A stretch of 64,000 nucleotides of DNA from contig NZ_LPWG01000011.1 in assembly GCF_001723285.1 (NCBI RefSeq), forward strand, positions 124,001 through 188,000, in the 5' to 3' direction. The stretch's first letter is position 1; each line of letters opens with the position of its first letter. Under the pieces are notes generated by a model that did not search any database, was not told the origin of the DNA, and saw nothing but the letters and a program-made list of their open reading frames with translations. Of this stretch, positions 872 through 7,066 are shown piece after piece. This DNA comes from Methyloceanibacter methanicus (GTDB lineage: Bacteria > Pseudomonadota > Alphaproteobacteria > Rhizobiales > Methyloligellaceae). The position numbers and the translations under genes are program-made.

Positions 872-1981
872 ATGCGTAACAACGTTCCAGACGGCGATTT
901 TAGTGCCCTCGTTCCGCCGGCTGACGTTGAGAAAAGAGCAGGCGGTTTCACGGGAAGGGTCCTGATCGAGCAGCTACGGGCATCCATCCGGGCGCTCGAG
1001 CAGGTTCCCGTCTCCTTAAGCATCCCCCCCGCGCCGGGTGCGGCCCCTTCCCGTCCCGCCTGCTCTTTAACGCCGCCAACCGCGGCACCCGGCACCCCGA
1101 ACACCCCTTCGAAGAGGCCCCCTTCGCACAGCCCTTTGAGCGTGCTGCACCAAGCGGGACTGCACGAGATCAAGCCCCACGCCTATCGCGACGCGCCCGC
1201 GGGCCTTGGCCTGGCACTCTCCGTGATCGCCGAGATCCAGGTGCAACATCCGGGACTTGTGCTGTGGTGCATGACGCGGCGGCAGGCAGAAGAATGGGGG
1301 CGCCCTTACGGCCCCGGCCTCATCAAGGCGGGGCTCGATCCGGCGCGAGTCCTCGTCGTCGAGGCGCGCACCGCGGACGAGGCCGCCTGGGCCCTGGAGG
1401 AAGGGCTGAAAAGCGGCGCACTGATCGCAGGGCTCGCTCAAACCGAAATCAAAACCCCGCTCGTGGCCCGGCGTCTCGGCCTTGCCGCCCGCGCCGCCGG
1501 AACGCCGTGCTTCCTCCTCACCGGCCATGGCGAGGCGAAGGTCCCCGGCACACTCACGCGCTGGCGGATCGCCACGGAGGCCAGCGCCCATATCCCTTTC
1601 GAGACGGGCGCCGGCTTCGGCGGAGGCACCCGTATCGGCGAAGCCGTTCCCGGCCCTGCCTGTTGGCGCCTGTCCCTCGAACGCAGCCGGGCTCCCGCTC
1701 AAGCAGGCCAGAGGCCGGTAGGGCAAGAAACAAGTGCTCAAGCAGGCCAGAGGCCGGTAGCACAAGAAACAAGCGCTCAAGCAGGCCAGAGGCCGGTAGC
1801 GCAAACAATAAGAGAAGGCACAGGCTTTCATGTGCAGGTCGATCATGAGCCCGGCCGTCCAAACGCCGAACAAGACGCCGAAGGCGGTGCGCAGAACGGT
1901 CTGCGTGTGGTTTCCGCATCTTCCGATCGAGCGGCTGATGCGGGAGCGCTTGCAAGCAGGCCGCACACCGCCACCGGCTAG
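872..1981 (+). CDS. imuA: ImuA, RecA-like accessory protein of SOS mutagenesis
   Basis: ImuA is the RecA-like accessory factor of the mutasome (ImuA, ImuB, DnaE2) that performs damage-induced translesion synthesis. Residues about 90-265 match the family: the segment beginning S-V-L-H-Q-A-G-L-H-E-I, then L-V-L-W-C-M-T, and S-A-H-I-P-F-E-T near the end of the core. I prefer the ATG at 872, with a GAGTGGAG ribosome site, over the in-frame GTG at 863. After the core, three 39-bp repeats are translated in frame (about residues 276-314). The frame then runs on through the start of imuB to 1981, and this last stretch resembles no ImuA. The native C-terminus has probably been replaced or shifted by the repeat insertion. 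Identity is confident; the true end is uncertain. Confidence 0.8.
   Translation: MRNNVPDGDFSALVPPADVEKRAGGFTGRVLIEQLRASIRALEQVPVSLSIPPAPGAAPSRPACSLTPPTAAPGTPNTPSKRPPSHSPLSVLHQAGLHEIKPHAYRDAPAGLGLALSVIAEIQVQHPGLVLWCMTRRQAEEWGRPYGPGLIKAGLDPARVLVVEARTADEAAWALEEGLKSGALIAGLAQTEIKTPLVARRLGLAARAAGTPCFLLTGHGEAKVPGTLTRWRIATEASAHIPFETGAGFGGGTRIGEAVPGPACWRLSLERSRAPAQAGQRPVGQETSAQAGQRPVAQETSAQAGQRPVAQTIREGTGFHVQVDHEPGRPNAEQDAEGGAQNGLRVVSASSDRAADAGALASRPHTATG
1697..1813 (+). repeat. Three tandem 39-bp repeats inside imuA
   Basis: Units lie at 1697-1735, 1736-1774 and 1775-1813, the last diverging at its 3' end. Each is 39 bp (13 codons) and contains GGCCAGAGGCC, a short inverted repeat, followed by a GGTAG-GCAA core. 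They are translated in the imuA frame as A-Q-A-G-Q-R-P-V-A/G-Q-E-T-S. The same unit recurs at 6010-6109 in dnaE2. There are no spacers, so it is not CRISPR. Confidence 0.95.
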
Positions 1982-3449
1982 GACACCCTTCGCGCTTGTG
2001 GGCAGCGACGCGCACGGGCTGGCTCTCACGGCCGTCAACACCCCATGCCGGCAGGAGGGGCTGAGCCCCGGCATGCGGCTGGCCGATGCGAAGGCCATCT
2101 GCCCGGCGCTGCTCACCGTGCCCGGCGCCCCGGACAAGGATGCGGCCTTTCTAGAGTCCCTCGCCCGCTGGGCCTCACGTTACAGCCCGTCCCTCAATGT
2201 GGACGGCACAGACGGCCTCTGGCTCGATACGACCGGCGTCGCGCCTCTTTTCGGTGGCGAACCCGAACTCCTGGCCGATCTTGCCACCCGTCTTGCCAGA
2301 CTTGGGCTGAGTGCGCGGCTCGGGTGTGCCGATACGCTCGGGAGCGCCTGGGCCCTGGCCCGTTTCGCGCGCCGCAGCCCTGCGATCGCCGCATCCGACG
2401 CGCTGCCGGAAACGCTCGCGCCCTTCCCCATCGAGGCTTTGCGCCTTGAGCCCGAGACGGTTCTCCTCTTGCAGCGGCTGGGGCTGAAACGCATCGGACA
2501 GCTTTACGATCTGCCGCGCGCCAGCCTCGAACCGCGCTTCCATTCAAAGGACGCCGCCGAAAGCGTCCTGCACCGCCTCGACGAAGCGCTCGGGGCCCGG
2601 AACGAAAAACACGCACCGCTTCTGCCCGCGCCGGATTTCGTGGCGCGGCTTTCTTTTGCCGAGCCGCTCATCTCTCACGACGGGGTCCTCGCCAGTCTTG
2701 AACGTCTCGCGGGCGATCTGTGCGGCATGCTCACGCGTGCCGGCACAGGGGCAAGGCGTGTGGTGTTGTGGGCCGCGCGCACGGACGGCTCGTCGGCCGC
2801 GATCGAAGCCGGCTTGAGCGCGCCCTCTGCCACACCGTCGCATCTCGTGCGCCTTCTCAAGGAGAAGCTCGAGACGATCGACATGGGATTCGGAGTCGAT
2901 CTCATGATCCTCGCGGCACTCGCCGTGGACGATCTGTACCCGGAGCAAACCGGCTTGAGCGCAACCACGCGCAAACCGGGGCCCGAAAAACTCATCGATG
3001 CGCTGAGCAGCCGCTTGGGCGCGCGCATGGTCCGGCGCCTCTTCCCGCAAGAGAGCCATATCCCGGAACTGGCGCAAACGACGCGAAGCGCCTTTGCGAA
3101 ACTCCCCGCTTGGAATGGGAATCCCCAAGAGAAGCCGCCGCGTCCGCCTCTCCTCCTCGCGAAACCGGAAAGCGTGGCCGTCATGGCGGAGATCCCCGAA
3201 GGACCGCCGGCCCGCTTCACCTGGCGGCGCGTCAGCCGCCGCGTGGTCAAGGCGGAAGGGCCAGAGCGTATCGCGCCTGAATGGTGGCGCGCCTTCGACG
3301 GCGGCACACCGCAACGGACGCGCGATTACTACCGCATCGAGGATGAGGACGGCTGCCGCTATTGGGTCTTCCGCGAGGGGCTTTACCAGGAACGGGGTGA
3401 ACAAGAGGGCGAGCCCCCGCGCTGGTTCCTGCATGGGGTATTTCCATGA
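1830..3449 (+). CDS. imuB: ImuB, Y-family polymerase-like mutasome protein
   Basis: ImuB is a catalytically inactive Y-family polymerase homologue that links ImuA and DnaE2 to the beta clamp. The palm region is visible early (V-C-V-W-F-P-H-L-P-I-E-R-L, about residues 24-36), with the fingers/thumb region and helix-hairpin-helix segment L-L-L-Q-R-L-G-L-K-R-I-G-Q-L-Y-D-L around 212-228. The length of 539 residues is normal for Rhizobiales ImuB. An ATG at 1830 follows AGAGAAGG at about 11 bases; an ATG at 1845 is also possible. It overlaps the imuA reading frame by about 150 bp, which is unusual and probably secondary to the repeats in imuA. Its ATGA overlap with dnaE2 at 3446-3449 indicates translational coupling. 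Confidence 0.9.
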   Translation: MCRSIMSPAVQTPNKTPKAVRRTVCVWFPHLPIERLMRERLQAGRTPPPARTPFALVGSDAHGLALTAVNTPCRQEGLSPGMRLADAKAICPALLTVPGAPDKDAAFLESLARWASRYSPSLNVDGTDGLWLDTTGVAPLFGGEPELLADLATRLARLGLSARLGCADTLGSAWALARFARRSPAIAASDALPETLAPFPIEALRLEPETVLLLQRLGLKRIGQLYDLPRASLEPRFHSKDAAESVLHRLDEALGARNEKHAPLLPAPDFVARLSFAEPLISHDGVLASLERLAGDLCGMLTRAGTGARRVVLWAARTDGSSAAIEAGLSAPSATPSHLVRLLKEKLETIDMGFGVDLMILAALAVDDLYPEQTGLSATTRKPGPEKLIDALSSRLGARMVRRLFPQESHIPELAQTTRSAFAKLPAWNGNPQEKPPRPPLLLAKPESVAVMAEIPEGPPARFTWRRVSRRVVKAEGPERIAPEWWRAFDGGTPQRTRDYYRIEDEDGCRYWVFREGLYQERGEQEGEPPRWFLHGVFP

Positions 3450-6400
3450 CAGTGTCTGCAACGCCCTCCTCCGAACCGCGCTACGCCGAACTCGACGTCA
3501 CCACGAATTTCACCTTTCTGCGTGGGGGCTCCCACGGCGAGGAACTCGTGGCGCAAGCGGCGGTGCTCGGACATGCGGCCGTCGCGGTTGCGGACGCCAA
3601 TACGCTTGCCGGCGTGGTGCGGGCCCATCTCGCGGCGAAAGAGGCCGGCATCCAATTCATCGTCGGCGCACGGCTGATTTTACAGGACGCTCCGTCTCTT
3701 CTCGCCTACCCCACGACCCGCGTGGCCTATGGCCGGCTGTGCTCTCTTCTCACGCTTGGCCAGCGCCGCGCCGGGAAAGGCGAATGCCTCCTCACGCTCG
3801 ACGACGTGGCGGCGCATGCGGACGGCCTGATCTTCATCGCGCTAAGGGGCGAGATGGACACGAACGATGCCCGCTTCGAAAAAGAGCTCTTGCGTCTCAA
3901 AAGCGCCCTGAAGGCCCCGCTCTATCTCGCCGCGCATCACAGCTATCGCGGCGATGACCGTATACGGATCGAAAGAGCCGCAAAGCTCGCCGCCCGTACG
4001 CGCATTCCGCTCATCGCCACCGGCGCCGTGCTGTATCACGCGCCCAAACGCCGCCCGCTCCAGGACGTGCTCACCTGCATTCGCGAAAAATGTTCGCTTG
4101 CCGAAGCAGGCTTTCGTCTTGAGGCCAATGCGGAACGGCATTTGAAGGCGCCCGCCGAAATGGCCCGGCTCTTCAAGGGCTATGAGGACGCGCTGGAACG
4201 CACGGTCCAGATCGCGAACGCGTGCCGTTTCTCTCTCGACGAATTGAAATACGAATATCCGGACGAACCAGTTCCCGAAGGCAAGACCCCGCAAGGCCAT
4301 CTGGAAGCGTTGGCCTGGGAAGGCGCCGCCTGGCGCTTCCAGGGCGGCATCCCCGATCACGTCCGCAGCACGATCGAGAAGGAACTCGCCCTCATCGAGG
4401 AGCTCGACTACGCGCCTTATTTTTTGACCGTCTACGACATCGTGCATTACGCGCGGTCCGTCGGCATTCTCTGCCAGGGGCGCGGCTCAGCCGCCAATTC
4501 CGCCGTGTGCTATTGCCTCGCCATCACCAATGTCGATCCCACCGAGATCGATCTTCTGTTCGAACGTTTCGTGTCGCCCGAACGCCGCGAGCCGCCCGAT
4601 ATCGACGTGGACTTCGAGCACGAGCGCCGCGAGGAGGTGATTCAATATATCTACGCGCGCTACGGCCGCGACCGCGCAGGGCTGGCCGCCACGGTTATTT
4701 CCTATCGGGGACGCTCGGCCGTGCGCGAGGTCGGCAAGGTGCTGGGACTGTCGGAAGACACGGTCGCCACCCTCGCCGGCACGATCTGGGGTCTCAGCAA
4801 CAAAGGCCTGCCGGATAAATATGTGCGCGAGGCGGGGCTCGACCCGTCCGACCCGCGTCTTGCCCGCTGTCTTGCGCTGGCCCATGAGCTGATCGGCTTT
4901 CCCCGGCATCTGTCGCAGCATGTGGGTGGCTTCGTGCTGACGCGCGGGCCGCTGTCCGAGCTCGTGCCCATCGGCAACGCGGCCATGGAAGACCGCACCG
5001 TTATCGAGTGGGACAAGGACGATCTCGACGCGCTGGGCCTCTTGAAGGTCGATGTGCTTGGCCTCGGCATGCTCACCTGCATCCGCAAGGCCTTCGCGCT
5101 TCTGCAGGAGCATTACGGCACGGCGCTCACGCTCGGTACCGTGCCGCGCGAAGACCCGGCCGTGTACGACATGCTCTGCCGCGCCGATTCCATCGGCGTG
5201 TTTCAGGTGGAAAGCCGCGCGCAGATGAACATGCTGCCGCGCCTGAAGCCGCGCTGCTTCTACGATCTCGTCATCGAGGTCGCCATCGTGCGCCCCGGGC
5301 CGATCCAAGGCGACATGGTGCATCCTTATTTGCGCCGCCGCTCCGGCGCCGAGCCGGTCGCGTTCCCTTCGCCCCACCCCGATCACGGACCGCCGGACGA
5401 ACTGCATCAAGTACTCGGCAAGACCATGGGCGTGCCCCTGTTTCAGGAACAGGCCATGCGCCTGGCCATGGTGGCCGCGAAGTTCACCGGCGACGAGGCG
5501 AACGAGCTGCGCCGCGCCATGGCGACATTCCGGCGGCGCGGCACGATCGGCACGCTTCAGGATAAGATGGTCGGCCGCATGACCGCGCGCGGCTATCCAC
5601 AAGATTTCGCGATGCGCTGTTTCAACCAGATCAAGGGGTTTGGCGATTACGGCTTCCCCGAAAGCCACGCGGCGAGCTTCGCCCATCTCGTCTATGTGTC
5701 GTCCTGGCTCAAATGCCATTACCCGGACGTGTTCGCCTGCGCGCTGCTGAATTCCCAGCCCATGGGCTTCTACGCACCGGCCCAGATCGTGGCCTGCGCC
5801 CGCGCGCACGGTGTCGAGGTGCGTGCGCCCGACATCAACCATAGCCACTGGGATTGCACGTTGGAGACTGCCCTTTCCTCGTCATGCCCGGACTTGATCC
5901 GGGCATCCACGCCGCTCCCTCTCCCAAACAACGACGCCAATGGAATGGATTGCCGGGTCAAACCCGGCAATGACGAAGGAGAGGATCGCGGCACTCAAAA
6001 GGCGCAAAGCGCGGTAGCGCAAACAACACGCGCTCAAGCAGGCCAGAGGCCGGTAGCGCAAACAACACGCGCTCAAGTAGGCCAGAGGCCGGTAGCGCAA
6101 ATAAAATGCGCCCTCCGTCTCGGCTTCCGCCAGATCGACGGGTTTCGCGAGACGGATGCCGATCAGGCCGTGGCCCGGCGCGGCCGTCCCTATGCGGACA
6201 TCCAGGACCTGTGGCGCCGCAGCGGCCTTGACCGCGCCGGCATCGAACGGCTCGCATGTGCCGATGCGGTCCGCTCGATCGGGCTCGACCGGCGCCAAGC
6301 CCTCTGGGCCGTGCGCGGTCTGCCCAAGGAGATCCCGCTGCCGCTGTTCGAACATGCGGATGCAACGGAGATGGGCCGCGAGCCGGAAGTCACGCTCCCC

Positions 6401-7066
6401 GCCATGCCGTTGCCCGAACACGTGGTGAACGATTACCGGACGCTCCGGCTCTCGCTCAAAGCCCACCCGATGACGTTTCTGCGCGCGCAAATGACGGACG
6501 CCCGTATCGTCTCGTGCGGCCAGGTCAAGGCCATGACGGACGGCACGCGGGTGAGTGTGGGCGGCGTGATCCTGGTGCGTCAGCGCCCCGGCTCGGCCTC
6601 CGGCGTGGTGTTCATGACCATCGAGGACGAGACGGGCGTCGCCAACGCGGTGATCTGGCCCACGGTGCTGGAGCGCATGCGCAACGTCGTCATGGGCGCG
6701 CGGCTCGTGGTGATCCATGGCCGTGTCCAACGCCACGAGGACATTATCCATGTGGTCGCCGAGCGGCTCGAAGACAAAAATCATTGGCTGGATCGTCTGT
6801 CCGAAGACGGCGAGACGCTGGAGGCCGCGCTCGCAAATGCCGATGAAGTGCGCCGGCCCGAGCCGGGCTCATGGCGATCTTCGCAACCCAAGCCCGGCCT
6901 GATGCCGCCGCTTGCCGCCGCCGATCACGTCAAACGTCCCGAAAGCGGCGAACCGCGCGGCCAGGGCGAGGCCCGTCATCCGCGCTGGCACCCCCGCTGC
7001 CACCCGCGCGATGCCCGCATCATTCCCAAGTCGCACATCTTGCCAAAATCCCGCGACTTTCATTGA
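3446..7066 (+). CDS. dnaE2: DnaE2 (ImuC), error-prone DNA polymerase III alpha subunit
   Basis: This is the polymerase of the SOS mutasome. An N-terminal PHP domain (about residues 10-230, starting Y-A-E-L-D-V-T-T-N-F) precedes a C-family polymerase core. The catalytic aspartates are in P-D-I-D-V-D-F near residue 385 and V-D-V-L-G-L-G near residue 535. A tudor/OB segment (V-S-V-G-G-V-I-L-V-R-Q-R-P) is near the C-terminus. At 1206 residues it is about 100 longer than typical DnaE2. The excess is mainly about 81 codons at 5867-6109, between C-T-L-E and A-L-R-L-G-F, two segments contiguous in homologues. That insert is a palindromic repeat plus 39-bp repeat units, all in frame and without stops. 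Whether the enzyme is active with the insert is unknown. Confidence 0.92.
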   Translation: MTVSATPSSEPRYAELDVTTNFTFLRGGSHGEELVAQAAVLGHAAVAVADANTLAGVVRAHLAAKEAGIQFIVGARLILQDAPSLLAYPTTRVAYGRLCSLLTLGQRRAGKGECLLTLDDVAAHADGLIFIALRGEMDTNDARFEKELLRLKSALKAPLYLAAHHSYRGDDRIRIERAAKLAARTRIPLIATGAVLYHAPKRRPLQDVLTCIREKCSLAEAGFRLEANAERHLKAPAEMARLFKGYEDALERTVQIANACRFSLDELKYEYPDEPVPEGKTPQGHLEALAWEGAAWRFQGGIPDHVRSTIEKELALIEELDYAPYFLTVYDIVHYARSVGILCQGRGSAANSAVCYCLAITNVDPTEIDLLFERFVSPERREPPDIDVDFEHERREEVIQYIYARYGRDRAGLAATVISYRGRSAVREVGKVLGLSEDTVATLAGTIWGLSNKGLPDKYVREAGLDPSDPRLARCLALAHELIGFPRHLSQHVGGFVLTRGPLSELVPIGNAAMEDRTVIEWDKDDLDALGLLKVDVLGLGMLTCIRKAFALLQEHYGTALTLGTVPREDPAVYDMLCRADSIGVFQVESRAQMNMLPRLKPRCFYDLVIEVAIVRPGPIQGDMVHPYLRRRSGAEPVAFPSPHPDHGPPDELHQVLGKTMGVPLFQEQAMRLAMVAAKFTGDEANELRRAMATFRRRGTIGTLQDKMVGRMTARGYPQDFAMRCFNQIKGFGDYGFPESHAASFAHLVYVSSWLKCHYPDVFACALLNSQPMGFYAPAQIVACARAHGVEVRAPDINHSHWDCTLETALSSSCPDLIRASTPLPLPNNDANGMDCRVKPGNDEGEDRGTQKAQSAVAQTTRAQAGQRPVAQTTRAQVGQRPVAQIKCALRLGFRQIDGFRETDADQAVARRGRPYADIQDLWRRSGLDRAGIERLACADAVRSIGLDRRQALWAVRGLPKEIPLPLFEHADATEMGREPEVTLPAMPLPEHVVNDYRTLRLSLKAHPMTFLRAQMTDARIVSCGQVKAMTDGTRVSVGGVILVRQRPGSASGVVFMTIEDETGVANAVIWPTVLERMRNVVMGARLVVIHGRVQRHEDIIHVVAERLEDKNHWLDRLSEDGETLEAALANADEVRRPEPGSWRSSQPKPGLMPPLAAADHVKRPESGEPRGQGEARHPRWHPRCHPRDARIIPKSHILPKSRDFH
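5870..5985 (+). repeat. Palindromic repeat element inserted in frame in dnaE2
   Basis: Two strong hairpins lie inside imperfect outer inverted arms. The first (5884-5906) has a 9-bp stem ATGCCCGGA/TCCGGGCAT with a 5-base loop. The second (5949-5971) has a 10-bp stem ATTGCCGGGT/ACCCGGCAAT with a 3-base loop. The outer arms are CTTTCCTCGTCAT and ATGACGAAGGAGAG. From general knowledge this resembles dispersed palindromic repeats that are usually intergenic in Rhizobiales genomes. Here it is read through as about 38 extra amino acids. Confidence 0.85.
6010..6109 (+). repeat. 39-bp tandem repeats inside dnaE2, same family as in imuA
   Basis: A partial unit (6010-6031) is followed by two full 39-bp units (6032-6070 and 6071-6109), differing from the imuA copies at only a few bases. 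They encode A-Q-A-G-Q-R-P-V-A-Q-T-T-R-type peptide in frame. They directly follow the palindromic element, and together the two form the roughly 243-bp insert. Confidence 0.95.

Follow-up and report, generated by a model that had tools for sequence, protein, structure and literature searches.

A dispersed two-helix hairpin repeat inside the open frames of imuA and dnaE2 in Methyloceanibacter methanicus

The window, a stretch of 64,000 nucleotides from the alphaproteobacterium Methyloceanibacter methanicus (contig NZ_LPWG01000011.1, positions 124,001 to 188,000 of the forward strand), carries the SOS mutasome genes imuA, imuB and dnaE2. The same 39-bp repeat lies in the open frames of imuA and dnaE2. 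It is a hairpin of two helices with covarying stems that is dispersed across the genome and has a lineage-specific presence at both gene sites. We consider it highly probable that the unit is a palindromic repeat of the repetitive extragenic palindromic (REP)-like class and no local minisatellite, and that this dispersed hairpin lodged in frame in ImuA and DnaE2 and was then turned over. The hairpin family sits mostly between genes. In the window's genus, arrays would have become established, with the frame intact, both at the C-terminal end of ImuA and in the part of DnaE2 ahead of the helix-hairpin-helix domain. Copy number and stems would then have been turned over through recombination or slippage, with selection holding the frame. 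The proteins would gain a low-constraint peptide, the conserved part seeming to be the DNA form and not the peptide. Other palindromic repeats would likewise have entered this operon, some at the DnaE2 site itself and others at two additional places. Below, genomes, contigs and loci are denoted by G, C and L numbers.

Hairpin units in imuA and dnaE2

Tandem Repeats Finder (TRF; minimum score 40) detected a 39-bp period at 1696-1804 in imuA (2.8 copies, 92% matches) and at 6012-6101 in dnaE2 (2.3 copies, 98% matches), and no further 39-bp array in the window. Repeat finding in the window placed the copies of both genes in a single family. The arrays lie inside open frames of the forward strand, at 863-1981 (putative imuA, 372 residues, the array toward the C-terminal end) and 3446-7066 (dnaE2, 1206 residues, matching PRK05672, error-prone DNA polymerase, at 1463 bits), confirming the repeat that an earlier note on this DNA had described in both genes. 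The imuA array consists of forward-strand units at 1695-1724 (inner stem GGCC/GGCC), 1734-1763 and 1773-1802, each supported by TRF, pattern and fold. The dnaE2 insert also holds two CGTC-type palindromic repeats upstream of its hairpin units, at 5880-5908 (forward strand) and, inverted relative to the first, at 5947-5975 (reverse strand), both found by pattern search and fold and both absent from the earlier note. A decayed unit follows at 5991-6020 (inner stem GCGC/GCGC, by sequence inspection), and then two clean units at 6030-6059 and 6069-6098 (TRF and pattern), all three on the forward strand. The three copies that the note had counted in imuA thus stand, whereas its two and a half in dnaE2 become two clean units and one decayed unit. 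The imuB frame at 1830-3449 (forward strand, 539 residues) has no palindromic insert in this genome.

Beyond the array the imuA frame continues, ending with a tail (REG..FHVQ and the like) common to near relatives, which indicates that the frame is kept. The match of DnaE2 to solved DNA polymerase III alpha chains stops at residue ~804, directly ahead of the insert, and the HhH_6 match begins at residue 889. The insert thus occupies an interdomain stretch, with the finger region on one side and the helix-hairpin-helix on the other.

Each unit is laid out as outer stem, CAAGYA, inner stem, GGT and outer stem, a hairpin of ~30 bp that an A-rich spacer completes to 39 bp. The outer stem has ~5 bp and the inner stem ~4 bp, and the asymmetric internal loop places CAAG[T/C]A opposite GGT. 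REPs of the GTAG superfamily have an unpaired GTAG beside the stem at one end. In the present unit G[T/C]AG is internal and contributes its final G to the inner stem, and the unit ends with the outer stem. A set of 151 distinct sequences was drawn from named genomes, restricted to matches that contain an 11-base core. In this set, Watson-Crick pairing holds at the three outermost positions of the stem in 146, 146 and 138 sequences, compared with 76, 67 and 117 expected if the two stem sides were independent. On the same assumption, the two variable inner pairs are Watson-Crick in 150 and 148 sequences compared with 110 and 75 expected. In an alignment of 50 sequences (50 of 58 picks out of 198 distinct sequences, two inner pairs being required beforehand), 97.1% of 442 cells are paired. 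Covariation in this alignment is 0.492 compared with 0.109 after shuffling; none of 500 shuffles was as high, and slid controls did not exceed 0.054. Folded as single-stranded DNA, the arrays reach z values of -2.9 and -2.5, and adjoining units of the dnaE2 array partly pair with each other in the predicted fold. The predicted 30-bp hairpin and its covariation agree with the short palindromes (~20-40 bp) of the REP-like class.

The composition of the arrays differs from that of the genes around them. Hairpin codons end in G or C in 15 of 37 cases in imuA and 17 of 35 in dnaE2, compared with 242 of 335 and 925 of 1171, respectively, for the remaining codons of these genes. These AT-rich third positions speak against the inserts being useful protein parts, peptides that tune the mutasome, as do the different peptides found at one site between species (AQAGQRPVAQ vs. 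AQVAQSAVGQ) and the unrelated inserts at the DnaE2 sites of other species. Although such a role would fit inserts that are in frame and at the same sites across several species, we regard it as very unlikely. Genic spacings are 39 throughout imuA and dnaE2 of this genome, 39 in imuA of G022 and 54 in imuA of G023, all multiples of three, whereas 21 of 61 spacings elsewhere are multiples of three, about the chance third, with a mode of 40. As genic spacings are few, this pattern is no more than suggestive of selection on the frame.

Dispersion and genomic context of the hairpin

This genome (3.14 Mb, completeness 93%) yielded 12 near copies, spread over 7 sites, and 48 pattern matches, the latter compared with 9 matches for the reversed control. 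The matches form, by our count, 27 groups, namely imuA, dnaE2, one match that looks like chance and 24 others; a covariance model gave 35 matches. The earlier note had not seen the unit elsewhere in the 64 kb, which holds by TRF and pattern, yet the genome-wide search for the 39-mer that it had proposed revealed these dispersed copies. In a draw of 289 genomes across the class, 23 genomes, this one included, match at E <= 0.01, ten of them with a single match, and the repeat is patchy in Alphaproteobacteria. The exact motif occurs in at least 116 stretches of named genomes. Among the 80 matches listed, 48 are labelled Brevundimonas (our count), and the others are mainly from Methyloceanibacter, Methyloligella, Hyphomicrobiales, Roseibium, Erythrobacter and other Alphaproteobacteria; two metagenome-assembled genomes (MAGs) among them are labelled Peregrinibacteria and Bordetella, the flanks of the Bordetella copy being those of a Brevundimonas copy. 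The motif is present in all 19 named carriers searched, in some of which the count is no higher than that of the reversed control. As to phage carriage, 38 stretches of IMG/VR contain the motif. Many dispersed, mostly extragenic copies, as in the REP-like class, were thus found.

Local slippage in imuA and dnaE2, with one array copied into the other gene and no dispersed element involved, would suit the regular 39-bp period. It would also suit the near identity of the imuA and dnaE2 units of this genome where relatives have other stem types at those sites, which suggests local homogenisation. However, the 24 other groups of sites, the many sites in other alphaproteobacterial genera, often single units, and the covarying stems contradict slippage as the whole account, which we find hardly probable, although it may still explain the copy number. 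The mobile minisatellite that the earlier note had considered gives way to a REP-like hairpin with covarying stems, whose movement was not seen; of the slippage product it had named as the other choice, only the local copy number resembles tandem expansion.

The context of the copies was analysed with home-made gene calls, whose starts may be misplaced. The at least 116 named stretches hold 126 clusters, 50 between tandem genes, 16 between convergent and 12 between divergent genes, 27 in called genes and 21 at an edge. In the named genomes the median distance is 46 nt to gene 3' ends and 121 nt to 5' ends. Within 30 nt of 5' ends, 15 clusters are sense and 3 antisense, a bias that could come from mis-called starts; within 30 nt of 3' ends, 6 are antisense and 2 sense in this genome and same-genus loci. 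This placement, together with compensatory stem changes around a constant internal loop, would be expected of a structured RNA element (an attenuator, a stabiliser or a protein-binding mRNA site) with a regulatory role, in the SOS operon as well. On the other hand, orientations are alike within 30 nt of 3' ends in the named genomes (18 antisense, 16 sense), the hairpin is missing in some relatives, and the invariance of the loop arises partly by construction, since the loop was part of the search pattern. A search of seven loci against Rfam at a permissive threshold gave no match to the unit, the sole match above the cut-off being an ffh small RNA beside it. The orientation results are mixed, and a regulatory RNA seems to us an unlikely account.

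The palindromes at 5880-5908 and 5947-5975 have the CGTC end, AT-starting stem of 8-9 bp, short loop and CC tail of CGTC REPs, as compared by eye with their description in the available part of Di Nocera et al. 2013 (PMC3733652). The CGTC pattern has nine copies in this genome, two of them in dnaE2, and six of the nine lie within 150 bp of a two-helix hairpin. Copies close to hairpins are those at C7:66386, C10:60278, C13:32125, C13:310277 and window 5880-5975. None of 12 CGTC copies in G022 and neither the single copy in G024 lies within 600 bp of a hairpin pattern match; the dnaE2 copy of G022 adjoins a decayed unit. General co-location of the two families was rejected, as it was not repeated in G022 or G024 apart from dnaE2.

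Inserts in related operons and their history

A DnaE2 search of 61 genomes yielded 30 loci, 20 of them in the window's family. Near residue 815 of DnaE2, palindromic repeats are present in 7 of the 20 family loci (this genome, G022, G033, G029, G021, G030 and G037) and short linkers without a repeat, mostly of ~8 residues, in 11 (G023, G024, G031, G032, G020, G035, G036, G039, G040, G041 and G042). G027 has repeat-like letters there, but with stops in frame and no downstream anchor, and the linker of G038 was not located by motif. The filled and empty calls rest on recognition by eye and pattern; the longest perfect stems (10, 9, 4, 5, 5, 6 and 10 in seven filled linkers; 4, 4, 3, 2, 5, 4, 7 and 4 in eight empty ones) are a crude measure that does not separate the two groups. 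The repeats near residue 815 are of several kinds, the two-helix hairpin, the CGTC type and G-rich palindromes (G037). The linker of L118, a Methyloceanibacter MAG, is letter-identical to that of G029, which is placed in the window's genus, in keeping with Methyloceanibacter as that genus.

At the C-terminal end of ImuA the two-helix hairpin is the sole repeat kind seen, with copy number and stems varying between species at one site. Arrays occur there in this genome and in four of the five nearest relatives compared (G022, G023, G029 and G033, not G024), and none was found in G024, G020, G021, G037, G042, G049 or G038; the comparison was made without G030 (locus too short), G059 and G036 (no anchor). 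Near residue 135 of DnaE2, CGTC-like or G-rich palindromic inserts are present in G024, G022, G021, G020, G037 and G042, and near residue 500 of ImuB palindromic inserts are present in G020 and G037 (14 DnaE2 and 12 ImuB frames compared, G030 left out). ImuB inserts of G049 (24 residues) and G038 (19 residues) show no obvious palindrome. In G029 further hairpins lie where imuB and dnaE2 meet, and the DnaE2 of G059, a genome of another family, has a 48-residue insert with a palindromic stretch. Thus, four places in ImuA, ImuB and DnaE2 hold palindromic repeats in relatives, at three of them of unrelated kinds between species. The comparison with close species proposed in the earlier note thereby revealed empty sites. 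The outcome that the note had named as refuting its reading, a repeat at one place in all relatives, did not occur, although most of the nearest relatives share the ImuA array. The inserts are open wherever the frame could be followed. In G042 (C3:151000-161000, L228), the imuB and dnaE2 matches shift frame at several points away from the inserts; these shifts and the stops of G027 may reflect assembly error or decay.

As a control, neighbouring genes in one syntenic region were compared, which gives no genome-wide rate. The window has 42 called genes, with imuA outside that set and treated apart; matches, imuB and dnaE2 included, number 27 in G024, 27 in G033, 14 in G023 and 13 in G022. No hairpin-type insert was found in the neighbours (up to 25 genes). 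The only gap of at least 9 residues outside imuB and dnaE2 is in g14 (11 residues, by eye not palindromic), and split matches among the neighbours are limited to g00 and g18, where the parts overlap and leave no insert, and to g23, judged a gene-calling artefact. In G022, dnaE2 also has a 15-residue short repeat that is not a palindrome. Identity to G024 is 83% for imuB and 89% for dnaE2, within the 39-93% of the neighbours, so general laxity fails to explain the inserts. Several palindrome kinds thus occupy four recurrent places of one operon in one bacterial family while the compared neighbours are clean, which makes target preference testable against mere tolerance. The operon could be a preferred landing zone, in which hairpins would move or copy through single-stranded DNA during the SOS response while the LexA-controlled operon is transcribed; we hold this to be improbable. 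If true, palindromes would be inserted on the occasion of error-prone repair and into the very genes for it, and the in-frame linker inserts would be the fossil record of this process.

The explanation by a dispersed hairpin lodged in frame has several points against it. The tree from imuB and dnaE2 codons is ((G020,G021),(G022,(own,(G029,(G024,(G023,G033)))))), own being this genome, with G037, G038 and G049 outside and supports of 95-100, and the empty sites of G023 and G024 nest inside the carrying clade. The ImuA arrays are best accommodated by one gain before the G022 split and a loss in G024, whose ImuA site has a CTCAA remnant. DnaE2 hairpins are present in G022 (decayed), this genome, G029 and G033 and absent in G023 and G024, a pattern requiring either that the hairpins were lost twice or that an empty allele was brought in by recombination. 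At both sites the tree is therefore better explained by an early gain, followed by loss or recombination, than by recent hopping. For at least 6 of 13 hairpin sites outside genes in this genome, the corresponding stretch of G024 or G022 also carries a hairpin, so movement looks slow; these stretches were chosen for carrying hairpins, which makes the share of empty sites unreadable. No Y1 transposase (PF01797, RAYT type) was found in this genome at its 93% completeness, and no mobilising enzyme was identified. A lone unit folds at z -1.57, only modestly better than shuffles, 12 of 200 being equal or better. Of five covariation measures, two (changes on both sides of a pair and additional pair types) were matched or exceeded in 33 and 25 of the 500 shuffles. 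A spacing of 39 is common outside genes (15 of 61) and hence weak evidence for frame selection. The assignment of 863-1981 to ImuA is sub-threshold, its product matching NF033429 at E 1.1e-10 and 41.7 bits, under the 150-bit cut-off of the family, and no Pfam family.

Known repeats and further hosts of the hairpin

REPs inside DnaE2, Uvr and other repair genes, with suggested effects on mutability, were reported by Di Nocera et al. 2013 (PMC3733652), where, in the part available, the mutability idea was speculation without a test. As described there, GTAG- and CGTC-tagged REPs resemble the present hairpins in being short dispersed palindromes near gene 3' ends, with complementary stem changes between subfamilies and grouped copies, some of them located in genes, among them those for DnaE2, Uvr proteins and pseudouridine synthases. 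They differ in that the repeats of one functional category are mostly at different sites (recB excepted), whereas here unrelated repeats share sites. CGTC repeats are common in Alphaproteobacteria and have no dedicated transposase, according to the same available text. Neither a two-helix family nor unrelated repeats sharing sites in one operon were found in the available part of PMC3733652, and ImuA does not occur in its text. Among the papers listed by a literature search for the motif, none was related. The kind of repeat has thus been known since 2013. Against the available text, the two-helix family and the pattern of several sites in one operon appear new, although the family may coincide with one of the 24 consensus families published for GTAG REPs.

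The parallel with Rickettsia palindromic elements (RPEs) drawn in the earlier note is borne out, but the 2013 study shows that it is not the sole precedent. RPEs, as described in the available part of PMC3733652, are likewise palindromes in frame in protein genes; they differ in their intracellular host, and the likeness is by description. RPE-6 and RPE-4 correspond there to CGTC-1 and CGTC-4 repeats, which brings the second palindrome in dnaE2 nearer to RPEs than the 39-bp unit. REPIN/RAYT systems also consist of many-copy REP hairpins, as far as the available parts of PMC3116915 and PMC2817692 describe them. They differ in the PF01797 gene, which is lacking in this genome and in 18 of 19 other carriers (one further locus being outside the search), the remaining carrier having a partial match with a stop. 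RAYT-mobilised REPs or REPINs were rejected on this ground. The two-helix family, compact, covarying and without a known mobiliser, offers a handle on the spread of transposase-less REPs.

Other hairpin clusters were scored for codons on both sides, and none of those compared (22 in this genome, 16 in G024 and 6 in G022) has coding in one open frame on both sides; the 16 clusters of G024 cover all its 29 matches, and the sites C13:310195 and C14:335289 of this genome lie outside the 22. Beyond the family, in-frame hairpins occur in UvrB (L093), an HI0933-like flavoprotein (L134), an FGGY kinase (L077) and the end of MiaB (L114), and at about one residue in two S-adenosylmethionine methyltransferases (L100 and L142); 10 of 27 in-gene candidates were searched against Pfam. 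Hosts outside repair therefore exist as well, and a repair-specific reading is weakened. UvrB as a further SOS target was rejected, since match length leaves room for no insert longer than ~12 residues in the 23 genomes with near full-length matches. The UvrB matches of this genome and G023 are each split over two frames; those of this genome (C10:510650-512628) overlap by 7 bases, suggesting a frameshift or an assembly error. In L302 (1415-1438), one hairpin lies ~60 bp outside the UvrB match.

A LexA-box-like GTTC-N7-GTTC, which we take to be the alphaproteobacterial SOS box, lies on the reverse strand at 839-853 directly upstream of imuA (motif scan). The window has four such motifs compared with 1.93 expected, and at least four occur in 11 of 100 shuffles, so only position argues for the site. 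Identical letters are found upstream of imuA in five relatives' loci (L219-L223).

In G024, 15 of the 29 genome matches fall within 27 kb (C1:1551280-1578008), a regional clustering. Near position 1500 of L004, a longer palindrome (CGCCCGGGCA...TGCCCGGGCG), which may be a terminator, has a single hairpin in its loop. In this genome, hairpin clusters at C13:50500-69500 (L236) lie between phage-capsid and baseplate-like genes, which presumably resemble a gene transfer agent cluster.

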